From Aureispira anguillae (GTDB lineage: Bacteria; Bacteroidota; Bacteroidia; Chitinophagales; Saprospiraceae): a stretch of DNA of 64,000 nucleotides. Position 1 is the first letter of the stretch. Every line of letters starts with the position of its first letter. Both the position numbers and the translations under genes were made by a program. Of this stretch, positions 6,846-55,839 are shown piece by piece. The DNA is taken from assembly GCF_026000115.1 (NCBI RefSeq), contig NZ_AP026867.1:62001-126000 (forward strand), read 5' to 3'. Below the pieces are notes generated by a model. That model worked only from the letters and a program-made list of their open reading frames with translations, did no database searches and was not told where the DNA came from.

Positions 6846-7397
6846 ATGGATCTAAACAAAATGAGATTTGGTAATAAGAAGACCCGTAATAGGGTTGTTA
6901 ATGAGCTTTATAGAACCTCAGTTCGGTATTGTATTGCTGCTTTGTGCAAAAGAGGAGCCGACTTAGAAACAGCTAAGGATATATTTCAAGATAGTATTAT
7001 GGCTTTCATTGAGAGAGTTATGAAGGATTCCAATTTTGTATTATCTGTTGATGCTAAGATCTATGTTGCTCGAATTTGTAAACACAAGTACATTGATTTT
7101 TTAAGAAAACAAGATCGTATTCCCATTATTGATGTATTGGATTATAAAATCCAGGATCATATTGATGGCTGTTTAGGAGAGTTAGAGCGAAAGAGGGTTA
7201 TAGAGCACTTAATGAAGGTTTTTAGAGAAGAATTAAAAGAGGAGTGCCAAGCTATTTTGAAAGCTTTCTATTTTGATAAAAAGTCATTAAAAGAAATTGC
7301 TAGCCTCCGTAAAATCACTCCTAACTCTGCTAAAACCCAGAAATCGAGGTGCATACGTTATTTAAGGGAAATGGTTGTTGATTTAGAACGAGCCTAG
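6846..7397 (+). CDS. ECF-like RNA polymerase sigma factor
   Basis: 183 residues, typical of group 4 (ECF) sigma factors. Region 2 is visible at about residues 25-60 (YCIAALCKRGADLETAKDIFQDSIMAFIERV), matching the core-binding/-10-recognition pattern. Region 4 with its helix-turn-helix is at about 135-178 (ECQAILKAFYFDKKSLKEIA, then TPNSAKTQKSRCIRYLRE). It should direct RNA polymerase to a small regulon. It is the first gene of an apparent operon with an anti-sigma-like membrane protein (36-bp gap) and two TPR-CHAT proteins, so those genes are its likely partners or targets. Family call firm; regulon inferred. Confidence 0.9.
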   Translation: MDLNKMRFGNKKTRNRVVNELYRTSVRYCIAALCKRGADLETAKDIFQDSIMAFIERVMKDSNFVLSVDAKIYVARICKHKYIDFLRKQDRIPIIDVLDYKIQDHIDGCLGELERKRVIEHLMKVFREELKEECQAILKAFYFDKKSLKEIASLRKITPNSAKTQKSRCIRYLREMVVDLERA

Positions 7398-7433
7398 AAT
7401 TACCCTGTTTTATGAACTATTATATTCCGTGTT

Positions 7434-8291
7434 ATGAAAAAAATAAATGACCAAAAGGAGATCGAACAGTATTTGGATGGAAGCTTGGATGAGCCTAGCA
7501 GAAAGGCTTTTGAGGAAAGAATAAAAAGCGATAAAGCAATAGCCAAAGAGGTTGCGATTTGGCAAACGATTTATCAGGGGATGGAAGAGATGGAGGCAAC
7601 AACAGGTTTTGTAGACGATACGATGTTGGAAAATGGGCTGACCCAACTTCAAACTAACTTAGAAAAAGAGGGCTTCTTTGATGCTTCGATTCCCTCAAAA
7701 ACGCCCAATAGGATGGGGCGCATCTTTGAGTTGTTTCGTTCTAAACCTGCCCGATGGATTGGAGCTGCTAGTTTTATTCTATTGCTTGCCTTTATTGGTA
7801 TTCTTTTCTCTAGAGAAGCTGCTTATGTAGCGCTAAATGAAAAGGTCTTATTTGATATTAATAAAAGGGGAGGGGATAATCGGCAAGAGTTGCAGCTTCA
7901 GCGATTGCTCCAAGAAGCTTTTCTTTATTACAATAAAAGAACATATAAGCAAGCAATTCCTTTGTTTGAAGATGCCCTGAAAATTGCAAATTCTGGCGCT
8001 TTAGATCAACTTACTAGAAAATATTACTTCTCTAGAATTAGCATCTATTTGAGTTGCGCTTATTTGGAGGATAAGCAAGTAACCAAGGCTATTACTATCC
8101 TTGAAGCGGTCTATCCCAAAGAACCCATGATTGATGAAGTAAAGCGGGAAGCTTGTTGGTATTTGGCAATGGCTTATTTAGAAAATAATAGACCAGCTGC
8201 TGCCCTCCAATTATTAGAACAGTTGCGTACAGATGCTGTTTATGGCGCCGCTGCGACAAAAAAAATAAAAGCATACTCAAAACAAGAATAA
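7434..8291 (+). CDS. Anti-sigma-like membrane protein with C-terminal TPRs
   Basis: 285 residues in three parts. The N-terminal cytoplasmic segment has the pattern IEQYLDGSLDEPSRKAFEE, typical of anti-sigma-like proteins in Bacteroidota. There is one membrane helix at about residues 101-123 (WIGAASFILLLAFIGILFS). The C-terminal segment, predicted periplasmic, holds two or three TPR-like repeats (AFLYYNKRTYKQAIPLFEDAL, AYLEDKQVTKAITILEAVY, AYLENNRPAAALQLLEQL). No zinc-binding ZAS motif was seen. Its position between a sigma factor and two exported TPR-CHAT proteins suggests it holds the sigma factor and senses something outside the inner membrane. The role is inferred from architecture and context. 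Confidence 0.75.
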   Translation: MKKINDQKEIEQYLDGSLDEPSRKAFEERIKSDKAIAKEVAIWQTIYQGMEEMEATTGFVDDTMLENGLTQLQTNLEKEGFFDASIPSKTPNRMGRIFELFRSKPARWIGAASFILLLAFIGILFSREAAYVALNEKVLFDINKRGGDNRQELQLQRLLQEAFLYYNKRTYKQAIPLFEDALKIANSGALDQLTRKYYFSRISIYLSCAYLEDKQVTKAITILEAVYPKEPMIDEVKREACWYLAMAYLENNRPAAALQLLEQLRTDAVYGAAATKKIKAYSKQE

Positions 8292-8292
8292 G

Positions 8293-11200
8293 ATGCAAAA
8301 AATAAAAATGATAAGCTTTTGTCTGGGAATTATTGGTTGTTTTTCTTGGGGCTTAATGGCTCAGAATTTAGAAGCACTTAGTTATGCGGAGTTGGATAGT
8401 ATAGCATCTTTATTCTTGCAAAAGGAAGCGTATAAACAGGCGATTCCTTACATGCAAATAGGAGAAAAAAGGGCTAAAATGGAGTTTGGGAAACAGGACT
8501 CCATCTATGTTGAGTACCTTTCTAATTTAGGGGGGCTTTATTACCTAGCTACACAATATAAAAAAGCAGAATCATTATATACTGAGGCAAAAAATATCTA
8601 CGCTCAATTCCTAGGTAAGGATGATCTTGATTATGTTTTTATACTTAATGACTTTGGACGATTGTATCAAAGTATGGGACGTTATAGTCAAGCCCAAGAA
8701 TTATTTTTAGAGGCAAAGAATATCTGTGTTAACTTGAATGATGATTTGGAATATGCCAATAGTCTTAACAATTTAGCTACCTCATATTTTATGATGGGGG
8801 ATTATTTTCAGGCTAAGTTCTTTTATCTTAAAGTAAAAAAAATTTATGCCAAAGTGCTAGGACGAAGAGATCCTTTGTATTCTATAATTCTTAATAATTT
8901 GGCACTGATATATCAAGATATGTATAGTTATAGTCAAGCTGAAAAATTATTGCTTGAAGTAAATCAAATTCATATTGAAGCTGGAAAAAAAGAATCATTG
9001 AACTATGCAATTGGTCTTGAAAACTTAGCCGAATTGTACGAAAAAATGGATAGTATCTCTAAAGTTGAGCGATTATTACTTGAAGCAAGGGATCTTTATA
9101 TTAAAATTGTGGGTAAGAACCATTTGTCATATGCTAAAAACCTCAATAATTTAGCCGCTTTTTATGTAAATATTAAAGAATATAGTAAGGCAGAAGAATT
9201 AGCTTTTTATGCAAAGGAGCTATATGCTAAAATGGTAGGTGAGGAGCATCCTTTATATGCTATAAGTCTTAATACTTTAGGTGGGGTTTATTATCACACA
9301 GGTCGTTACCAAAAAGGAGAAGAATTACTACTTAAAATGAACAAAATTGATGCTAGAACAATGGGCGAGAAGCACCCCTCGTATGCTTTAGGGCTTTCTA
9401 ATTTGGCGGTAATATATGAGAAGATGGATCGTCTAACTACAGCTTTTTCCTATTGTATAGCGAGTATGATTGCCAACTCAGACCAATTAGATAGTAGCTG
9501 TTTAACATTGGATAAATTAGATGAGTTTGATTACTACTCTAAAGATGTAATTAATGGATCTATTATGTTATTATTAGAAATCTTAAGAGCCCAATACAAA
9601 AAAACAGGTGAGAAGGCTAAACTAAAACAACATTACCAATTGGCACAAGCAGCAATACGACTCAATGAGAAATTTCGCAATGAATTTATAAATGAGGAAG
9701 ACAAATTGAGAATATTGGGTTCTAATAAATCGAATATTAGTGAAGGTATTCAGGCAGCACTACAGCTCGAAGAACCAATCTACGTACAAGAAGCGTTTAG
9801 TTTTGCAGAACAAAACAAATCCATTCTTTTAGCAGATGCAATCAAAGGAAACCGAGCAAGAGTATTTGGTGATTTGCCCGATAGATTGGCAGAAGAGGAG
9901 TTGCAGCTTCAGAAAAAATTAGCCGAATTAAAGAAAGAAAATTATAGTGTTCAAACCGCAGACGAAAAAGCAAGGGTGAATCGAGAGTTGGGAGAACTAA
10001 ATCTGAAAATAGATAGCTTCTTAAAGTCACTAAAGGATAAGTATCCTAAATATCACGCACTCAAATATGAAAATATTACAGCAAAAGCGCAGGAAATACA
10101 GAGCTTGTTGGATGAAAAAAGCTTGATGATTGAATACTTTCAAACCGATACTATCCTTTATTTGTTTGCGCTAAGCAAGGATCAAGTAGCTTTGTATCCT
10201 ATTTCAATCCATAAAGATAGCTTAGAAAAAAGAATCGGAACGCTAAGAAACGCCTTGAGTAATTTCATTTTTAACATAGAAAAAAAAGCAGTTGCAGACG
10301 AACACTATGTAGAAAATGCCCATTGGTTGTATCAAAAAATAGTAGCCATCGCCTTAAAAGATAAATCCATTAAAAACTTAATCGTAATAACAGATGGAGC
10401 GCTGGGGCATTTGCCTTTTGAAGTCTTTTTAACACGAGCAGTTAAAGGAGAAAAAGACTATCGTTTGATGCCTTATTTACTAAATGATTACACAATTAGT
10501 TATAACTATTCGGCTACTTTGTGGAAAGATAACTTGAAGGAGGGTAAACCCAACTCAAATGGAGAGATTTTAGCTTTTGGAGCAACTTATCCAAAGGTTG
10601 ATTCAAATGTATTGAGTTTTCGGTTGCCTTATTTTTTGGATTTGAGATTATCGTTATCACAGTTGCCTGAATCAGAACATGAGGTTAACGTATTGGCTCA
10701 AAATTTTGAAGGCAACTTTTTGATCGGAAAGCAGGCCAATGAACAATTATTTAAGGAAAAAGCATTGGGTTATGGAATCATTCATTTGGCAATGCATGGA
10801 AGGTCCAATTCACGAATTCCTATGCTATCGAGCCTAGCATTTACGGAAGACAATAATCATAGAGAGAACAACTTTCTACAAGCCTATGAAATATCACAAT
10901 TAGAATTAAATGCCAATTTGGTTGTTTTATCAGCTTGTGAAACGGGCTATGGCAAATTTGAACAAGGAAATGGAATTGCATCTTTAGCCCGTTCATTTAT
11001 GTATGCAGGAGCACCTTCTTTGATCGTTTCCCTTTGGCAAGTCAATGATGCTTCTACTGCTGTTTTGATGCAATCTTTTTATCACTATTTAGCAGCAGGC
11101 AAAACCAAAGATGCTGCATTACGCCAAGCCAAGTTAGACTATATTCAATCTGCAAAAGGAGACAAGGCACACCCTATTTTTTGGTCTGCTTTTATCCAAT

Positions 11201-11328
11201 TGGGGAATACTGCCCCAATAGCTATTGCTTCAAAGAGCAGTTCTTGGAAATATATTTTGGGAATATCATTTTCGGTTTTTATGATTTTATGGGCTAAAAA
11301 CTGGCTCAATCAAATAGAGAAGAAATAA
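8293..11328 (+). CDS. Exported TPR-CHAT caspase-like protein 1
   Basis: 1011 residues starting one base after the previous stop codon. Layout: signal peptide (about 1-24, ending GLMAQ); kinesin-light-chain-like TPRs (about 35-400, repeating GEKHPSYALGLSNLAVIYEK-type units); a helical linker rich in K and E (about 490-600); a CHAT domain of the caspase-like clan CD fold (about 690-975); and a C-terminal membrane helix (ILGISFSVFMILWAKNW). The expected catalytic dyad is present: His835 in HLAMHGRSN and Cys882 in VVLSACETGYG. The signal peptide plus tail anchor predict a periplasmic protein tethered to the inner membrane. CHAT proteins are known or predicted proteases; substrate unknown. Confidence 0.88.
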   Translation: MQKIKMISFCLGIIGCFSWGLMAQNLEALSYAELDSIASLFLQKEAYKQAIPYMQIGEKRAKMEFGKQDSIYVEYLSNLGGLYYLATQYKKAESLYTEAKNIYAQFLGKDDLDYVFILNDFGRLYQSMGRYSQAQELFLEAKNICVNLNDDLEYANSLNNLATSYFMMGDYFQAKFFYLKVKKIYAKVLGRRDPLYSIILNNLALIYQDMYSYSQAEKLLLEVNQIHIEAGKKESLNYAIGLENLAELYEKMDSISKVERLLLEARDLYIKIVGKNHLSYAKNLNNLAAFYVNIKEYSKAEELAFYAKELYAKMVGEEHPLYAISLNTLGGVYYHTGRYQKGEELLLKMNKIDARTMGEKHPSYALGLSNLAVIYEKMDRLTTAFSYCIASMIANSDQLDSSCLTLDKLDEFDYYSKDVINGSIMLLLEILRAQYKKTGEKAKLKQHYQLAQAAIRLNEKFRNEFINEEDKLRILGSNKSNISEGIQAALQLEEPIYVQEAFSFAEQNKSILLADAIKGNRARVFGDLPDRLAEEELQLQKKLAELKKENYSVQTADEKARVNRELGELNLKIDSFLKSLKDKYPKYHALKYENITAKAQEIQSLLDEKSLMIEYFQTDTILYLFALSKDQVALYPISIHKDSLEKRIGTLRNALSNFIFNIEKKAVADEHYVENAHWLYQKIVAIALKDKSIKNLIVITDGALGHLPFEVFLTRAVKGEKDYRLMPYLLNDYTISYNYSATLWKDNLKEGKPNSNGEILAFGATYPKVDSNVLSFRLPYFLDLRLSLSQLPESEHEVNVLAQNFEGNFLIGKQANEQLFKEKALGYGIIHLAMHGRSNSRIPMLSSLAFTEDNNHRENNFLQAYEISQLELNANLVVLSACETGYGKFEQGNGIASLARSFMYAGAPSLIVSLWQVNDASTAVLMQSFYHYLAAGKTKDAALRQAKLDYIQSAKGDKAHPIFWSAFIQLGNTAPIAIASKSSSWKYILGISFSVFMILWAKNWLNQIEKK
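9786..11220 (+). repeat. CHAT-half repeat, copy 1
   Basis: About 1,435 bp encoding the linker and CHAT domain, repeated at 12961-14395 in the next gene with no indels visible. Mismatches are few and mostly clustered around 10840-10880 and 10950-10985. Homology falls off abruptly on both sides, consistent with gene conversion or a recent partial duplication. Confidence 0.9.
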
Positions 11329-11351
11329 TTAATCACGAAATATAATATACG

Positions 11352-14300
11352 ATGCTAAAAACTATATATATATGCCTGATATTTATATTGGTGCTGCGAG
11401 TTTCTATTCAGGCACAGGACTTAGATTTGATGAAATTGAATTATGCGGAGTTGGATAGTTTGATTGAGATAAAAAAAGTGAAAGAAGCCTATAAATTAGC
11501 GATTCCTTATGTACAAGCTTCTAGGCAAAAAGCTAAGGTGGAATTTGGAATCGAGGACACATTATACATCAATTATACAGCTGATTTGGGGCTTTTTCTT
11601 TATTATATTGGGCATTACAAAGAAGCAGAGTCTCTGTGGCTAGAGGTTAAGCATTTAAATGCTAAGATTAGAAAGGAGGATATTACTAACCTTATTAATT
11701 TAGCCACCTTATACCAAGAACTAGGTGACTATGTTCAAGCAAAAAAATTATTAGAAGAAGGAAAAACAATAGCAGCTCATTTAGGCAAAGAAAGTTTAAA
11801 ATATGCTGATTATCTCCACACTTTAGCAGCTTTGTATCAAGAAATGGGGCAATATAAAAAAGCAGAATTACTTTTTCTTAAGGCTAATGGAATTAGAATT
11901 AAGATTAAGGGGAAATTTCATCTCGATTATACAGTAGGAATCAATCATTTAGGAACATTGTACCAAGAAACTGGGCAATTTATAGCAGCTGAAGCTTTAT
12001 ATTTGGAATCACTAGAGATAAAGGCAAAGCTATTGGGCAAAGAACATTCTAATTATGCTGTCAGCCTGTATAATTTAGCAGTTTTATATCTAGAAATGGG
12101 AAACTATTCTAAGGCTGAGTTATTTCATCTAGAATCAAAAAAAATTATAGAAATAACACAGGGTAAAGAGCATCCTAATTATGCAACAAGCCTTCTAGGA
12201 CTAGCTACGCTGTATCTAGGTATTGGCGATTATGAAAAAGCTGAGCCCCTTTATTTAGAAGCTAAGAAAGTTAGGGTAAAACTGTGGGGAAAAAAGCATC
12301 TTAGTTATGTTGAAGTTCTGGACTATTTAGGGATTCTTTATCAGAATAGTGGGGCTTACAAAAAATCAGAGTTATCTTATTTAGAAGGAAAAGCAATTCG
12401 GGGAGAGGTAATAGGGAAGGATAATATACATTATATTCGAAGTGTGAACCATTTAGGAGTATTATACCTGATCCTAGAACGTTTAGCTGAAGCGGAACAG
12501 TTGTTTTTGGAGGCAGCAATGAAAAATAAAAGGCTATTGGGCACAGAAAATCCGACCTATACTGTTGCTTTATATAATTTAGGAAGTTTATACCTAAGAA
12601 AAGAAAAATTGGACAAGGCGTTTTTTTATTGCAAGGAGAGTATCGCTACAAATTCTGCACAAATAGACAGCAATTGTTTAGAAATTATGGCATTAGATAC
12701 TTTTGATTATTATTCAGATAAATGCATCAATTATTCTATTTACAAATTGTTAGAAGTAATAAAAGCCCAATATCAAAAAACAGCGGACAAAACTAAGCTA
12801 AAACAGCACTATCAATTGGCACAATCGGCAATACGACTTAATGAGCGTTTTCGTAATGATTTTAGAGATGATGATGATAAATTGAGAACGTTAGAAATGA
12901 ACAATGATTTTGTTAAAGCTGGAATATCAACCGCTTTGTTATTAGACCAACCCACCCATATACAAGAAGCGTTTAGTTTTGCAGAACAAAACAAATCCAT
13001 TCTTTTAGCAGATGCAATCAAAGGAAACCGAGCAAGAGTATTTGGTGATTTGCCCGATACATTGGCAGAAGAGGAGTTGCAGCTTCAGAAAAAATTAGCC
13101 GAATTAAAGAAAGAAAATTATAGTGTTCAAACCGCAGACGAAAAAGCAAGGGTGAATCGAGAGTTGGGAGAACTAAATCTGAAAATAGATAGCTTCTTAA
13201 AGTCACTAAAGGATAAGTATCCTAAATATCACGCACTCAAATATGAAAATATTACAGCAAAAGCGCAGGAAATCCAGAGCTTGTTGGATGAAAAAAGCTT
13301 GATGATTGAATACTTTCAAACCGATACCATCCTTTATTTGTTTGCGCTAAGCAAGGATCAAGTAGCTTTGTATCCTATTTCAATCCATAAAGATAGCTTA
13401 GAAAAAAGAATCGGAACGCTAAGAAACGCCTTGAGTAATTTCATTTTTAACATAGAAAAAAAAGCAGTTGCAGACGAACACTATGTAGAAAATGCCCATT
13501 GGTTGTATCAAAAAATAGTAGCCATCGCCTTAAAAGATAAATCCATTAAAAACTTAATCGTAATAACAGATGGAGCGTTGGGGCATTTGCCTTTTGAAGC
13601 TTTTTTAACACGAGCAGTCAAAGGAGAAAAAGACTATCGTTTGATGCCTTATTTACTAAATGATTACACAATTAGTTATAACTATTCGGCTACTTTGTGG
13701 AAAGATAACTTGAAGGAGGGTAAACCCAACTCAAATGGAGAGATTTTAGCTTTTGGAGCAACTTATCCAAAGGTTGATTCAAATGCATTGAGTTTTCGGT
13801 TGCCTTATTTTTTGGATTTGAGATTATCATTACCACAGTTGCCTGAATCAGAGCATGAGGTTAACGTATTGGCTCAAAATTTTGAAGGCAACTTTTTGAT
13901 CGGAGAGCAGGCCAATGAACAATTATTTAAGGAAAAAGCATTGGGTTATGGAATCATTCATTTGGCAATGCATGGAAGGTCCAATTCACGAATTCCTATG
14001 TTATCAAGTCTAGCATTTACAGAGGACAACAACCAAGAAGAGAACAACTTTCTAGAAGCCTATGAAATATCACAATTAGAATTAAATGCCAATTTGGTTG
14101 TTTTATCAGCCTGTGAAACGGGCTATGGCAAATTCAAGCAAGGAGAAGGAGTCATTTCTATAGCCCGTTCATTTATGTATGCAGGAGCACCTTCTTTGAT
14201 CGTTTCCCTTTGGCAAGTCAATGATGCTTCTACTGCTGTTTTGATGCAATCTTTTTATCACTATTTAGCAGCAGGCAAAACCAAAGATGCTGCATTACGC

Positions 14301-14498
14301 CAAGCCAAGTTAGACTATATTCAATCTGCAAAAGGAGACAAGGCACACCCTATTTTTTGGTCTGCTTTTATCCAATTGGGGAATACTGCCCCAATTGCAT
14401 TAGAGACCAAAAGAAGCATTTGGAGAAACGTTCTAATAGGTTTTTTATTTTTGGTATTGTTTGCAACAGGAATAAAATATTGGACAAAAAAAAGGTGA
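11352..14498 (+). CDS. Exported TPR-CHAT caspase-like protein 2
   Basis: 1048 residues, the tandem paralogue of the preceding gene (23-bp gap). It has a signal peptide (ends VSIQAQD), about eight TPR units (for example GKEHSNYAVSLYNLAVLYLE), the same linker and CHAT domain, and a C-terminal membrane helix (VLIGFLFLVLFATGI). The dyad is His874 (HLAMHGRSN) and Cys921 (VVLSACETGYG). From 12961 to 14395 the DNA aligns without gaps to 9786-11220 with only a few dozen mismatches, whereas the TPR halves are clearly diverged. The stop codon sits inside the left arm of a 30-bp palindromic terminator. Probably the same protease activity as its neighbour with a different recognition half; inferred. Confidence 0.88.
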   Translation: MLKTIYICLIFILVLRVSIQAQDLDLMKLNYAELDSLIEIKKVKEAYKLAIPYVQASRQKAKVEFGIEDTLYINYTADLGLFLYYIGHYKEAESLWLEVKHLNAKIRKEDITNLINLATLYQELGDYVQAKKLLEEGKTIAAHLGKESLKYADYLHTLAALYQEMGQYKKAELLFLKANGIRIKIKGKFHLDYTVGINHLGTLYQETGQFIAAEALYLESLEIKAKLLGKEHSNYAVSLYNLAVLYLEMGNYSKAELFHLESKKIIEITQGKEHPNYATSLLGLATLYLGIGDYEKAEPLYLEAKKVRVKLWGKKHLSYVEVLDYLGILYQNSGAYKKSELSYLEGKAIRGEVIGKDNIHYIRSVNHLGVLYLILERLAEAEQLFLEAAMKNKRLLGTENPTYTVALYNLGSLYLRKEKLDKAFFYCKESIATNSAQIDSNCLEIMALDTFDYYSDKCINYSIYKLLEVIKAQYQKTADKTKLKQHYQLAQSAIRLNERFRNDFRDDDDKLRTLEMNNDFVKAGISTALLLDQPTHIQEAFSFAEQNKSILLADAIKGNRARVFGDLPDTLAEEELQLQKKLAELKKENYSVQTADEKARVNRELGELNLKIDSFLKSLKDKYPKYHALKYENITAKAQEIQSLLDEKSLMIEYFQTDTILYLFALSKDQVALYPISIHKDSLEKRIGTLRNALSNFIFNIEKKAVADEHYVENAHWLYQKIVAIALKDKSIKNLIVITDGALGHLPFEAFLTRAVKGEKDYRLMPYLLNDYTISYNYSATLWKDNLKEGKPNSNGEILAFGATYPKVDSNALSFRLPYFLDLRLSLPQLPESEHEVNVLAQNFEGNFLIGEQANEQLFKEKALGYGIIHLAMHGRSNSRIPMLSSLAFTEDNNQEENNFLEAYEISQLELNANLVVLSACETGYGKFKQGEGVISIARSFMYAGAPSLIVSLWQVNDASTAVLMQSFYHYLAAGKTKDAALRQAKLDYIQSAKGDKAHPIFWSAFIQLGNTAPIALETKRSIWRNVLIGFLFLVLFATGIKYWTKKR
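12961..14395 (+). repeat. CHAT-half repeat, copy 2
   Basis: Direct-repeat partner of 9786-11220. Copy 2 begins at the same codon context (ACAAGAAGCGTTTAG) and ends just before the diverged C-terminal membrane helix. Confidence 0.9.
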
Positions 14499-14519
14499 TT
14501 CTCTAGAGAATCACCTTTT
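14490..14519. terminator. 30-bp palindromic bidirectional terminator across a stop codon
   Basis: The arms AAAAGGTGATTCTCT and AGAGAATCACCTTTT form a perfect palindrome between the convergent TPR-CHAT (plus) and TonB (minus) genes. The A/T ends give U-tracts in both directions. The TGA stop of the plus-strand gene (14496-14498) is part of the left arm. Confidence 0.85.
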
Positions 14520-52689: not shown

Positions 52690-55600
52690 ATGATAAAGTC
52701 AAGCATTCCCACCCCTAAAACATTCCCATTATTGGGGAACCTTAAAAATATAAACCCCAAAGCGTTTAGCCAAAGTCTTTTTGAGATTGCTAAAGATTTT
52801 GAAGAAGGGAGAATTTATAAATTGATACTGCCCAATAATGATATGGTGATTGTTGGGTCTCAAGAATTGGTGCATGAAGTTTCAGACCCAAGCCGATTTG
52901 GTAAGAATACGAAGTTGTTTAAAGAAATACAAGGGCTGCTAGGTGACGGATTAGTTACCGCAGAAACCGAGAGCCTTGCTTGGGGAAAAGCACATCGCTT
53001 ATTAATGCCAGCCTTTGGTCCTGTGGCGATTCGGAATTTGTTTCCACAGATGTTAGATATTGCAGAGCAAATGATGCTTAAATTTGAACGGATGGGAGCC
53101 GAGCATTCGTTTGATGTTTCTGAAGAAATGACCAAATTAACCTTAGACACCATTGCATTGTGTAGCTTTAATTATAGATTCAATAGTTTTTACTCGGAAG
53201 AGCTGCATCCATTTGTGGAATCAATGGTAGATAGTTTAAGTGAGATGGGGAAGCGTGCTGTTCGTTTTCCTCTTCAAACAAAATTGATGGTAAAAACCAA
53301 TCAAAAATACTTTGCGGATATTGATTATATGCATACTGTTGGTGCTGAAATTGTCCGAAATAGAAAAAAAGACCCCAAAAAAGACAAGTACAACGATTTG
53401 CTTAATATTATGCTGAATGGTGTTGATCCAATTAGTGGTGAACGCCTATCGGATGACAATATTAAAAACCAGATGATTACTTTCTTAATAGCAGGGCATG
53501 AAACCACTAGTGGCTTATTAACCTTTGCCATTTATGAGTTGTTAAATAACCCCAATAAACTAAAAAAAGCCCAAGAGGAGGTTCAACGTATCCTAGGGAA
53601 TAACCAACCAACAATAGATCATCTTCCCCAATTAACCTATATAGACCAAGTCTTAAAAGAAACCCTACGTTTGCACCCCATTGCCCCCATGTACACAATA
53701 GCTGCTTTAGAAGATACGGTGATTGGTGGCAAATACTTGGTCAAAAAAGACGAAAATGTAACGGTCTTAATAGGGTGGTTGCATCGAGATAAAGCAGTTT
53801 GGGGCGAAGATGTAGAAGCATTTAAGCCCGAACGATTTGCTATCGAAAATGCAGAACAATTGCCAGAAAATTGTTTTAAACCTTTTGGAAATGGGAAACG
53901 AGCTTGTATTGGTCGCTTCTTTGCTATGCAAGAGGCCGTATTAGCGTTGGCGATGTTGCTGCAACGTTTTGACCTTAAAAAAGACAATCCCAATTATAAT
54001 TTAAAAATAAAAGAGGCGATTACCATCAAGCCTGATAATTTTAGAATTCGGGTCGAAAGAAAAGAAGAGGTCGCTATTGTTGCTCCATCGCTCAATCCAT
54101 CAGAAACGATTGCCAATAACAAAACTAAGCAAGTGATTAATAAGAATGGAAAACCACTGTTAATTTTGTTTGGATCCAATACAGGATTATCGGAAGGTTT
54201 TGCACACAAAATTTATCAAGAGGCTACCGAGTATGGCTATCAACCCACGCTAGGGGCAATGGATGATTATGTGAATCGATTGGATAAAGATATACCCGTT
54301 GTTATTGTCACTGCTTCTTATGAAGGAAAACCGCCGAGGAACGCTGTGAAATTTATGGATTGGTTGGAAAATGGAAATGTATCTTCTTTAGCAGGAATAC
54401 AATATGCTGTTTTGGGTTGTGGGCATAAAGATTGGCTTAAAACCTATCAAGCCATTCCCATAAAAGTGGATCAATTGTTATCAAAGTGGGGAGGCAAAGC
54501 ATTGATAGAGCGGGGCGCTTTGAATGGTGCTACAAATGTCTATGGTGATTTTGACAAATGGCAGGATCAATTTTGGGAAAAAATGCCTAAGGGAAAGACC
54601 GAAAAACAAGGATTCTCTGTCGTGGTTTCCAACAATCGTTTAGAAACATTGGAACAAAAGGTATTGCGGCAGGGAGTTATTATAGAAAACAAAGAATTGG
54701 TCGATATGACGCATCCGCTTGGACGTTCTAAACGACATATAGAAATTGAATTGCCCAAAGATATGCCATATCAATCAGGGGACTATTTGTCTATTCTACC
54801 AAGTAATCCCAAAGAAAATATTGAACGTATTTTTCAACGGTTAGGATATACTATTGATACACAAATAACCATTCAGGCTGCTGATGCACAACTGTTCCAT
54901 TTACCAGTAGGTTATCCTGTTGCTTTGTTCGATATTTTTACCAATTATGTAGAATTAGGACAGCCAGCAACTCAAAAGCAAGTGGAATTATTGGCTTCAT
55001 ATTGTCCTTGCCCGCCTGAAAAAAACGCTTTAATAAAACTAACGGACGAAAGCATTTACACAGAAGAAGTACTGCATAAGCGAGTCAGTGTCTTAGACCT
55101 ATTAGAATGTTATGCGTCTATTGATATTCCTTTAGAACAATTGTTAAAAATACTACCACCACTAAAACCTCGTTTATATTCCATTGCTTCATCTCCTTAT
55201 TGGGATGATCAAAAAGTAGCCTTAACTGTTGCAGTGGTTGATGCGCCTGCTTGGTCTGGGCAAGGGCAGTATAAGGGCGTGGCATCAAATTATTTAGCTC
55301 ATTTGCCAGTAGGAGGACAGGTGCAGATTGATACCCAGCCAGCAACTAGTGCTTTTCATCTTCCGACCGATCTTTCAGTGCCTCTTATTATGATTGCAGC
55401 AGGTAGTGGGATTGCCCCTTTTAGAGGCTTTGTTCAAGAGCGTTCTATCCAAAAGCAAAAAGGAAATTCAGTAGGAGAAATTGTTTTGTTTTTTGGCTGC
55501 GACCATCCTGAGGTTGATGCTTTGTACATGGATGAATTTTGCCAATGGGAGCAAGAGGAAGTTGTTCAAGTATTTAGGGCTTATAGTGCTTTGGAAGAAG

Positions 55601-55839
55601 GAGATATAAAGTTTGTTCAACATAAGTTGTGGGCTGAGCGTAAACGGGTTTATGAGTTGCTTCAAAAGGGGGCAAAAGTGTTTGTTTGCGGAGATGGAAA
55701 ATACATGGCTCCTGCTGTCCAAAAAACATTTATTGATATTTATAAGGCTTGCGCTAAGGTATCTAGAGAGGAGGCCAAGGTTTGGTTGGATGGCATCCAA
55801 AAAGAAGGCTTGCGCTATGCGACAGATATTTTTATTTAA
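52690..55839 (+). CDS. Self-sufficient cytochrome P450-reductase fusion (CYP102 type)
   Basis: 1049 residues, the size of P450 BM3. P450 domain about 1-460: I-helix FLIAGHETTSG with Thr272, ExxR in KETLR, heme loop FKPFGNGKRACIGRFF with Cys406. Flavodoxin-like FMN domain about 490-640 (LLILFGSNTGLSEGFA). FAD/NADPH reductase domain about 665-1049 (KPRLYSIASSP, GSGIAPFRGFV, VFVCGDGKYM). It uses NADPH and O2 to hydroxylate a substrate, classically fatty acids. By eye alignment Val89 replaces BM3 Phe87, Asn50 replaces Arg47 and Ile54 replaces Tyr51, so substrate anchoring differs. An AraC regulator precedes it. Fusion and family are certain; substrate is not. Confidence 0.95.
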   Translation: MIKSSIPTPKTFPLLGNLKNINPKAFSQSLFEIAKDFEEGRIYKLILPNNDMVIVGSQELVHEVSDPSRFGKNTKLFKEIQGLLGDGLVTAETESLAWGKAHRLLMPAFGPVAIRNLFPQMLDIAEQMMLKFERMGAEHSFDVSEEMTKLTLDTIALCSFNYRFNSFYSEELHPFVESMVDSLSEMGKRAVRFPLQTKLMVKTNQKYFADIDYMHTVGAEIVRNRKKDPKKDKYNDLLNIMLNGVDPISGERLSDDNIKNQMITFLIAGHETTSGLLTFAIYELLNNPNKLKKAQEEVQRILGNNQPTIDHLPQLTYIDQVLKETLRLHPIAPMYTIAALEDTVIGGKYLVKKDENVTVLIGWLHRDKAVWGEDVEAFKPERFAIENAEQLPENCFKPFGNGKRACIGRFFAMQEAVLALAMLLQRFDLKKDNPNYNLKIKEAITIKPDNFRIRVERKEEVAIVAPSLNPSETIANNKTKQVINKNGKPLLILFGSNTGLSEGFAHKIYQEATEYGYQPTLGAMDDYVNRLDKDIPVVIVTASYEGKPPRNAVKFMDWLENGNVSSLAGIQYAVLGCGHKDWLKTYQAIPIKVDQLLSKWGGKALIERGALNGATNVYGDFDKWQDQFWEKMPKGKTEKQGFSVVVSNNRLETLEQKVLRQGVIIENKELVDMTHPLGRSKRHIEIELPKDMPYQSGDYLSILPSNPKENIERIFQRLGYTIDTQITIQAADAQLFHLPVGYPVALFDIFTNYVELGQPATQKQVELLASYCPCPPEKNALIKLTDESIYTEEVLHKRVSVLDLLECYASIDIPLEQLLKILPPLKPRLYSIASSPYWDDQKVALTVAVVDAPAWSGQGQYKGVASNYLAHLPVGGQVQIDTQPATSAFHLPTDLSVPLIMIAAGSGIAPFRGFVQERSIQKQKGNSVGEIVLFFGCDHPEVDALYMDEFCQWEQEEVVQVFRAYSALEEGDIKFVQHKLWAERKRVYELLQKGAKVFVCGDGKYMAPAVQKTFIDIYKACAKVSREEAKVWLDGIQKEGLRYATDIFI

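Follow-up and report, generated by a model that had tools for sequence, protein, structure and literature searches.

The four genes at positions 6,846 to 14,498 of the analyzed window, a stretch of 64,000 nucleotides from Aureispira anguillae, probably represent a protease-gated switch for an ECF sigma factor operating in the cell envelope. As judged from the sequences, a CHAT protease most likely cuts the membrane anti-sigma protein after R145, by which the sigma factor would be released, and the predicted CHAT pocket generally fits the presumed cleavage site. Similar gene sets were found recurrently throughout the Bacteroidota.

The four plus-strand open reading frames (6846-7397, 7434-8291, 8293-11328, and 11352-14498) were confirmed with spacings of 36, 1, and 23 bp, in agreement with the tight packing described in the initial annotation, and look like a single operon. 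A terminator-like palindrome of 13 pairs is located at the operon end (14490..14519), five such sites having been found between 6500 and 14700 compared to 4.8 expected by chance. In a generic scan, 20 promoter-like sites were detected vs. 30 expected, and a promoter or regulon argument was set aside.

The first gene (6846..7397, plus strand) encodes P0001 (183 aa), which exceeded the cut-off of the TIGR02937 sigma70-ECF model (55.6 vs. 42.9 bits), consistent with the ECF-like identity originally assigned to it. Furthermore, a sigma profile built from 20 relatives matched SigW, SigH, and RpoE in the PDB; the Pfam models for sigma regions 2 and 4 both scored under their own cut-offs. The second gene (7434..8291, plus strand) encodes P0002 (285 aa), featuring N-terminal helices, one transmembrane (TM) segment deduced from hydropathy (residues 108-126; 7755..7811, plus strand), and a TPR part detected by one model above its cut-off (27.5 vs. 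25). In the AF2 model of P0002 (mean pLDDT 81.6, pTM 0.56), four N-terminal helices were predicted, and low pLDDT values were obtained for the coil at residues 142-149, which lies between the TM helix and the TPR and contains the predicted cleavage site R145-G146 (7866..7871, plus strand), proposed from this low-pLDDT coil and from conservation.

Because the sequence similarity of P0002 to the curated anti-sigma model NF052375 is weak (15.2 bits, cut-off 100), the name anti-sigma rests on gene order, topology, and the predicted helices. The sigma gene was located directly upstream in 73 of the 82 profile matches having a TM segment, and the N-terminal flank of this segment was the more positive one in 92 out of 94 sigma/anti-sigma pairs. 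The zinc-type (class I) motif was not found in P0002, there being no Cys and no His within the first 80 residues, and homology to a solved anti-sigma was discarded, as the best 60 of 269 PDB profile matches were all TPR, TPR-like, or designed-repeat proteins aligned over the TPR part. In the broad sense (gene following the sigma gene, cytoplasmic helices, one TM segment, and periplasmic C-terminal part), P0002 is a membrane anti-sigma with putative sigma binding, which upholds the earlier description of an anti-sigma-like single-pass membrane protein with periplasmic TPRs.

The TPR-CHAT proteins P0003 (1011 aa; 8293..11328, plus strand) and P0004 (1048 aa; 11352..14498, plus strand) complete the locus. 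Their CHAT domains scored far above the cut-off (212 and 216 vs. 24 bits), the P0004 CHAT model reached a mean pLDDT of 88, and the intact dyads H835/C882 and H874/C921 were located as the initial annotation had stated for Cys882 and Cys921. Possessing TPR, CHAT, and His/Cys dyad, both proteins are assigned to the TPR-CHAT proteases, with activity being predicted. Each begins with a signal-like segment and carries a C-terminal hydrophobic stretch with a basic tail behind it; at a threshold of 1.5, the hydropathy script classified the tail TM segment as clear for P0004 (2.12) and as borderline for P0003 (1.51). With this reservation for P0003, the export and tail-anchoring proposed previously appear to hold, and the TPR and protease parts of both proteins would face the periplasm because of this topology. 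In an observation absent from the initial annotation, the linker and CHAT halves of the two genes were found to be nearly identical (P0003 aa 510-959, 9820..11169, and P0004 aa 549-998, 12996..14345, both plus strand, with edges defined to the bin only), DNA identity amounting to 91-100% per 50-codon bin, compared to 44-73% in the flanking bins and only 44-55% in the first 409 codons. Sharing one protease domain and differing in their TPR halves, the two CHAT proteins could therefore report two signals to one switch. In total, 30 CHAT matches were detected in this genome, only four of them within five genes of an anti-sigma, a count that weighs against the proposed switch.

To follow the gene association in relatives, whose loss would have spoken against the circuit as first proposed, the neighborhoods of related sigma/anti-sigma pairs were searched, and the co-occurrence proved to be conserved. 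A CHAT gene was located at most 5 kb from 38 of 70 related pairs (own-genome loci excluded), with 1.7 expected, and within five genes of 16 out of 20 out-of-family pairs. The 60 profile-found loci were chosen blind to CHAT among the matches listed from 398 genomes, requiring a left flank of roughly 9 kb or more and allowing no more than three loci from one genome, and the 20 out-of-family loci were taken from the top of the match list (at most two per genome). Anti-sigma calls for the out-of-family co-occurrence and for added loci were made at E <= 1e-4, and a small number of them have proline-rich linkers or lack a sigma gene; copy numbers represent lower bounds, because 6-10 candidates were scored in each genome by the profile searches. 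The order of sigma, anti-sigma, and CHAT was also seen in Aquimarina. Relative to the pair, CHAT occurred in all four possible orientations. Recurrent neighbors, for which a small number of representatives per family were matched to Pfam, were proteases of several classes and T9SS-tailed proteins; for the M48 cluster, two of the five members tried passed the cut-off.

The relation between the linker and the CHAT domain was deduced from aligned columns. Among the 90 filled rows of the column aligned with R145, just outside the membrane, 60 had R and 10 had K. When 393 columns of the paired CHATs were ranked by association with the linker residue type, E836 of P0004 (13857..13859, plus strand) came first and D958 (14223..14225, plus strand) second; these residues and their P0003 counterparts E797 (10681..10683, plus strand) and D919 (11047..11049, plus strand) are proposed to be S1-pocket acids. 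All 51 CHATs paired with Arg/Lys linkers had Glu in the E836 column, vs. 1 of the 12 paired with Met, Leu, or His (Met-type pairs being, for example, L186 and L192). Columns 872 and 830 followed closely (9e-9), and the test values are inflated because of shared ancestry. In the CHAT model, E836 (residue 128) is part of helix 123-135 before the catalytic His, and D958 (residue 250) lies six residues past strand 240-244, directly before helix 251-265. Both places, before the His and after the Cys, resemble those of the acidic P1-Arg pockets in the Arg-specific clan CD enzymes MALT1, gingipain, and separase, a likeness of sequence and model position. The position of separase D2151, the P1-Arg recognizer, corresponding to Csx29 K670 (PMC9729208), is taken by the non-acidic A962 in P0004, so that separase-type P1 recognition at this position was dismissed.

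Several loci deviate from the pattern. Glu was retained next to a Met-type linker (L209), and both Glu and Asp next to Leu-type linkers (L237 and L262). Six further loci (L097, L101, L133, L153, L156, and L157) combine an anti-sigma lacking the basic residue with a CHAT carrying both acids; these misfitting CHATs form a separate clade, with a C-terminal TM segment in 0/6. A quick tree of 94 rows implied three changes of linker type and two of the Glu. Since supported branches provide one to three independent contrasts, none running the opposite way, significance is out of reach, and the contrasts on the CHAT tree (about two to three independent switches) were not taken as proof. The same applies to the bare association between Arg and CHAT, which is too weak by itself (37/52 vs. 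20/42, p=0.033); Arg linkers were also present where none of the tested protease families lay within four genes (13 of 15). When a looser pattern was applied, Lys was detected nearby in three of nine M48-associated linkers. E836 had itself been picked by the column scan, and among 16 added loci, only 10 had a CHAT in range, seven being Met-type and mostly from one clade. Linker residues were set by eye for L110 (second pair), L195, L106, L180, L189, L196, L198-L201, L204, and L207-L210; L097 was reassigned from the K to the G class owing to misalignment, and the second match of L173 was dropped. Alignment A7 covers 35 of 80 loci and the window. The conservation of R145 above 90% in alignment A8 (22 of 25 references plus P0002, without the Leu-type L237 and L262 and one of the two L285 proteins) is flattering and not regarded as evidence.

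According to the proposed mechanism, the N-terminal domain of P0002 would hold the sigma factor at the inner membrane, while the TM segment is predicted to place a short linker and the TPR domain in the periplasm. Once the TPR domains of the CHAT proteins meet an envelope signal, the CHAT domain would cleave the linker of the anti-sigma behind a basic residue (R145 in P0002), as conservation and covariation suggest. The remaining stub is expected to be cut by a housekeeping site-2 protease and then degraded, and the freed sigma factor may re-express its own operon. One M50 match in the genome is consistent with regulated intramembrane proteolysis, but says little, because M50 was also present in 14 out of 14 control genomes. 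Sigma release through CHAT cleavage, as suggested by the initial annotation, is indirectly favored by co-occurrence, topology, the linker Arg, and covariation with two CHAT acids, whereas its second half, a coupling to cell death or invasion, found no support: PADLOC returned only a generic TPR model, and the recurrent neighbors are proteases and T9SS-tailed proteins.

Precedents for such a switch are Csx29/Csx30/sigma, CalpL/T/S, and DdvA, and a further likeness exists to the sigma-E pathway. DegS is a serine protease, in contrast to the clan CD cysteine protease of this locus, where TPRs occur on both partners. In the RseA/DegS/RseP pathway, an envelope protease likewise cuts the membrane anti-sigma first, followed by RseP and ClpXP (PMC10028731). 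The TPR-CHAT protein Csx29 acts with Csx30 and CASP-sigma in type III-E CRISPR and, unlike the locus studied here, is RNA-triggered via Cas7-11; Csx30 was reported to be cut after L407 in one type III-E system (PMC9729208). By contrast, the CHATs described here are predicted to be exported and tail-anchored, have no known CRISPR part, and would use a basic site; in our alignment reading, Csx29 carries H546 and S666 where P0004 has E836 and D958. In type III CRISPR, CalpL cuts the anti-sigma CalpT en route to release of the ECF sigma factor CalpS, CalpL being, however, a Lon-type protease triggered by cA4 instead of a CHAT (PMC11417357). DdvS/DdvA of Myxococcus xanthus comprises an ECF sigma factor and a transmembrane anti-sigma with a CHAT-like C-terminal domain (8rot/8rw5; the fold search used the CHAT model only), and DdvS controls a CBASS-CRISPR island (PMC12288465). 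DdvA is one chain, whereas anti-sigma and protease are encoded by separate genes here, which places the locus outside the DdvA type. EACC2 caspase systems also combine caspase-domain neighborhoods with ECF sigma and TPR genes, and autopeptidase activation was proposed for them; they contain a caspase instead of CHAT and the partners TRADD-N/EACC2, with no linker site described in the available text (PMC8195603). Similarly, metacaspase operons of Myxococcus and others hold caspase-like genes alongside sigma-70 factors, with metacaspases in place of CHAT and, in the available text, no anti-sigma cleavage (PMC3501461). In the open-licence literature, a search for CHAT domains with extracytoplasmic function or anti-sigma yielded only PMC10028731, a result that refers to this literature and not to everything in print.

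Alternatively, the CHAT genes could be outputs, the sigma factor activating its own operon together with neighboring secreted or envelope proteases while the anti-sigma is released in another way. We regard this as unlikely, even though the representatives of neighboring genes include several peptidase classes, some T9SS-tailed and expected to leave the cell, all four CHAT orientations occur as in a regulon, and CHAT is probably co-transcribed with sigma here; this reading would predict no link between linker residue and CHAT pocket, yet the two proposed pocket columns ranked highest among the 393. The roles of trigger and output are compatible, and CHAT may be both. Decidedly improbable is a scaffold or ligand-sensing CHAT that does not cut and acts through TPR-TPR binding between the proteins, although the CHAT of DdvA is not known to have a cutting role. 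DdvA, according to the 8rot/8rw5 titles and to sequence and fold matches, unites transmembrane anti-sigma and CHAT in a single chain, so that a CHAT may form part of an anti-sigma, and in one CHAT of the own genome (L033), Tyr occupies the position of the catalytic His. Against this stand the acids tracking the linker residue and the retention of the catalytic His and Cys in 49/49 CHATs, in 69/70 of a larger collection (one row is gapped at Cys), and in 29/30 (His) and 30/30 (Cys) own-genome rows.

The lowest probability of all was assigned to a defense or cell-death module with CHAT as triggered suicide protease. It draws on the action of Csx29 in type III-E CRISPR (PMC10028731), on the control of an antiphage island by DdvS (PMC12288465), and on a neighbor at L111 with a weak STAND/NACHT match below the cut-off. 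However, PADLOC provided no useful match among the four proteins, the generic TPR model for P0004 being the only one, so that the locus was not classified as an anti-phage defense system; neither cas genes nor other recognized defense genes above the cut-off were found among the 20 neighbor proteins of relatives given to Pfam, and 30 CHAT matches in one genome would suit signaling better.

Beyond the protease-gated switch at this locus, we tentatively, and with considerable doubt, suggest that Bacteroidota membrane anti-sigmas are interchangeable locks, each with a linker site fitted to the co-encoded exported protease, the Csx29-Csx30-sigma arm being a cytoplasmic relative. Under this tentative proposal, lock types would be an Arg site with an acidic-pocket CHAT, a Met site with an acid-less CHAT, and a linker of the G-F-G type paired with a TPR metalloprotease resembling M48; lock and protease would co-evolve, and a cell could therefore possess several orthogonal envelope alarms. 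If the switch proposed for this locus is real, at least some exported TPR-CHATs of the Bacteroidota, a large and mostly unexplained set, would obtain a concrete job and a predicted scissile bond, and CRISPR-linked caspase/sigma signaling would fall within a wider, CRISPR-free family of envelope signaling.

All four reading frames of the initial annotation were found as described, being separated by gaps of 36, 1, and 23 bases. The product of the first gene, P0001 (6846–7397), passed the NCBIfam model for ECF sigma factors. P0002 (7434–8291) featured one TPR model above the Pfam cut-off, one transmembrane helix, and an N-terminus folded into four helices in the AlphaFold model, its likeness to anti-sigma factors being weak at the sequence level. 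TPRs and a strong CHAT domain were detected in both P0003 (8293–11328) and P0004 (11352–14498), and the previously proposed His/Cys dyads were located at H835/C882 and H874/C921, respectively. Both proteins begin with a signal-like segment and close with a hydrophobic stretch and a basic tail at the C-terminus (the tail helix of P0003 being borderline), features which would place their TPR and CHAT parts outside the inner membrane. Their nearest CHAT relatives in named records originated from Aureispira sp. CCB-QB1 and Aureispira MAGs (57–58%). Moreover, a block of approximately 450 codons covering linker and CHAT domain (9820–11169 and 12996–14345) is common to both genes, with 91–100% DNA identity per bin, while the flanking bins reach 44–73% and the TPR halves have diverged. 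This block looks like the result of recent gene conversion or partial duplication, and the tandem arrangement like one protease kept with two different TPR halves, that is, two sensors. Elsewhere in the window (52690–55839), a P450 fused to flavodoxin, FAD, and NAD reductase domains, representing a self-sufficient P450 architecture, was encoded.

The initial annotation had proposed that the four genes may form one circuit, and CHAT genes indeed recur beside sigma/anti-sigma pairs in relatives. The anti-sigma profile A1 gave matches in 390 of the 398 genomes sampled from the family. Within 80 in-family neighbourhoods (20 fetched via P0002 and 60 via the profile), CHAT genes resided within 5 kb of 38 out of 70 pairs, compared to a chance expectation of 1.7 deduced from the CHAT density in 16 of these genomes (214 in 113.4 Mb); few were found past 6 kb, and long genes are undercounted in the far bins because the fetched regions stop at about 9–10 kb. 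Outside the family but within the phylum, a CHAT was present within five genes of 16 out of 20 fetched pairs, the exceptions being L177, L182, L184, and L194. CHAT was present in 42 of the 45 anti-sigma-positive genomes of a 247-genome phylum sample vs. 81 of the 202 negative ones. Copy numbers of CHAT and anti-sigma were equal in 14 out of 20 positive genomes that share the order and class but not the family, at most about ten candidates being scored per genome. A converse search starting from CHAT in named genomes gave 29 out of 80 loci with an anti-sigma match no more than five genes away. The order sigma–anti-sigma–CHAT–CHAT was encountered in Splendidivirga corallicola (L246) as well as in an uncultured Aquimarina (L258).

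Only four of the 30 CHAT matches in the 7.8-Mb source genome have an anti-sigma gene no more than five genes away (two in the window, one at L031, and one at L035/L090). One further CHAT (L024, 6995–10108), adjoining a sigma gene only, is placed nearest to the window CHATs in the tree; it is located downstream of the sigma gene and of a 154-aa protein with two transmembrane helices, which replaces the TPR anti-sigma. The TPR-CHAT protein of L033 (6703–9795) carries Tyr in place of the catalytic His and is possibly a dead protease.

An alignment of 94 pairs revealed one conserved basic column between the transmembrane helix and the TPRs of the anti-sigma protein: of 90 filled rows, 60 carry R and 10 carry K. 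The next residue is G, S, D, or N in 83 of 93. Nearby columns were weakly conserved, except for an aromatic position about 14 residues before the basic one and the following column. In P0002, the candidate site R145-G146 falls in a low-confidence coil (142–149) modelled between the transmembrane helix and the first TPR helix. CHAT-linked pairs carried R in 37 and K in 3 of 52 cases; for pairs lacking any tested protease family within four genes, the values were 13 and 2 of 15.

The residue E836 of P0004 (E128 in the CHAT model) was picked by a scan of all columns. Among 49 CHAT domains, Glu occupied this column in 39/39 with Arg-type and 0/5 with Met/Leu/His-type partners. Sixteen further loci were fetched, ten of them with CHAT in range; for all 69 labelled CHATs, Glu was found in 51/51 with Arg/Lys linkers, 1/12 with Met/Leu/His, and 6/6 of the class featuring Gly or Ala. 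Asp at D958 (model residue 250) accompanied 48/48 Arg linkers and 4/15 Lys/Met/Leu/His linkers. E836 ranked first (2e-11) and D958 second (5e-9) among 393 columns; however, columns 872 and 830 (9e-9) were nearly as strong, indicating that shared ancestry contributes. Merging the Met clade into one row left 51/51 vs. 1/4 for Glu. On the 94-row tree, linker type changed three times, Glu twice, and Asp four times, with one to three independent contrasts on supported branches and none contrary, so that the sharp pattern rests on few events. Exceptions were L209, L237, L262, and the six Gly/Ala loci, whose CHATs form a separate clade together with two orphans of the source genome, lack the C-terminal transmembrane helix (6/6), and are accompanied by M48 or C14 proteases at five of the six loci. 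Glu replaces Asp at the D958 position in L134, L175, and L209 (Lys- or Met-type linkers); a longer Glu compensating for a shorter Lys is plausible, yet Asp is retained in the Lys-type L120 and L208.

In the CHAT model (pLDDT 88), E836 lies in helix 123–135, downstream of strand 90–94, H874 after strand 160–164, C921 after strand 207–210, and D958 six residues past strand 240–244. The best matches were Csx29, separase, gingipains R and K, and DdvA, a transmembrane anti-sigma. For clan CD enzymes, the P1 pocket residues are described as Arg87/Arg233 in caspase-7, Asp365/Glu500 (with Asp462) in MALT1, Asp163 in gingipain R, and Glu917 in a separase model (PMC4357240, PMC4626109). As judged from the model, the regions holding E836 and D958 resemble those used for the P1 pocket in these enzymes.

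Clustering of 455 proteins (≥120 aa) encoded at positions −5 to −2 and +1 to +4 relative to the anti-sigma gene, with names taken from representatives, yielded CHAT as the largest cluster (42 members, 39 loci), followed by S8 subtilases (19 members, 15 loci), an M48-like family (15 members, 14 loci), a protein about 330 aa long with a T9SS tail (15 members, 10 loci), and smaller caspase and M12B-like metalloprotease clusters. Of 71 pairs, 61 had a member of these families, of M43, or of M16 within four genes, the T9SS-tail and M12B models being unspecific. In L112, L121, L131, L138, L146, and L155, a protein of about 300–350 aa between the CHAT and sigma genes, on the divergent side of the pair, belongs to the T9SS-tail family by profile, with the Pfam T9SS tail in L112 and L138. 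The HExxH motif was intact in all 17 M48-like proteins found. None of nine M48-linked pairs had the basic linker residue, a nearby Lys being detected in three by a looser pattern. M48-like HExxH proteins near pairs were seen at L083 (9076–12519), L096, L098, L105, L113, L116, L141, L144, and L161, where the linker lacks the basic residue and ends in a G-F-G-like or similar motif, hinting at a second protease-lock pair.

The simplest account, which we consider somewhat probable, is that CHAT acts as the first-cut protease of the anti-sigma. The additional proposal of a role in defence or cell death was unsupported by the analyses run. Csx29–Csx30–CASP-sigma (PMC10028731) and CalpL/T/S (PMC11417357) are known relatives of this logic, and DdvA, which combines an anti-sigma with a CHAT-like domain in one protein, represents a natural fusion of both functions. 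What appears to be new here is the envelope setting, the broad distribution without a known CRISPR part, a predicted scissile residue, and a candidate pocket tracking that residue.
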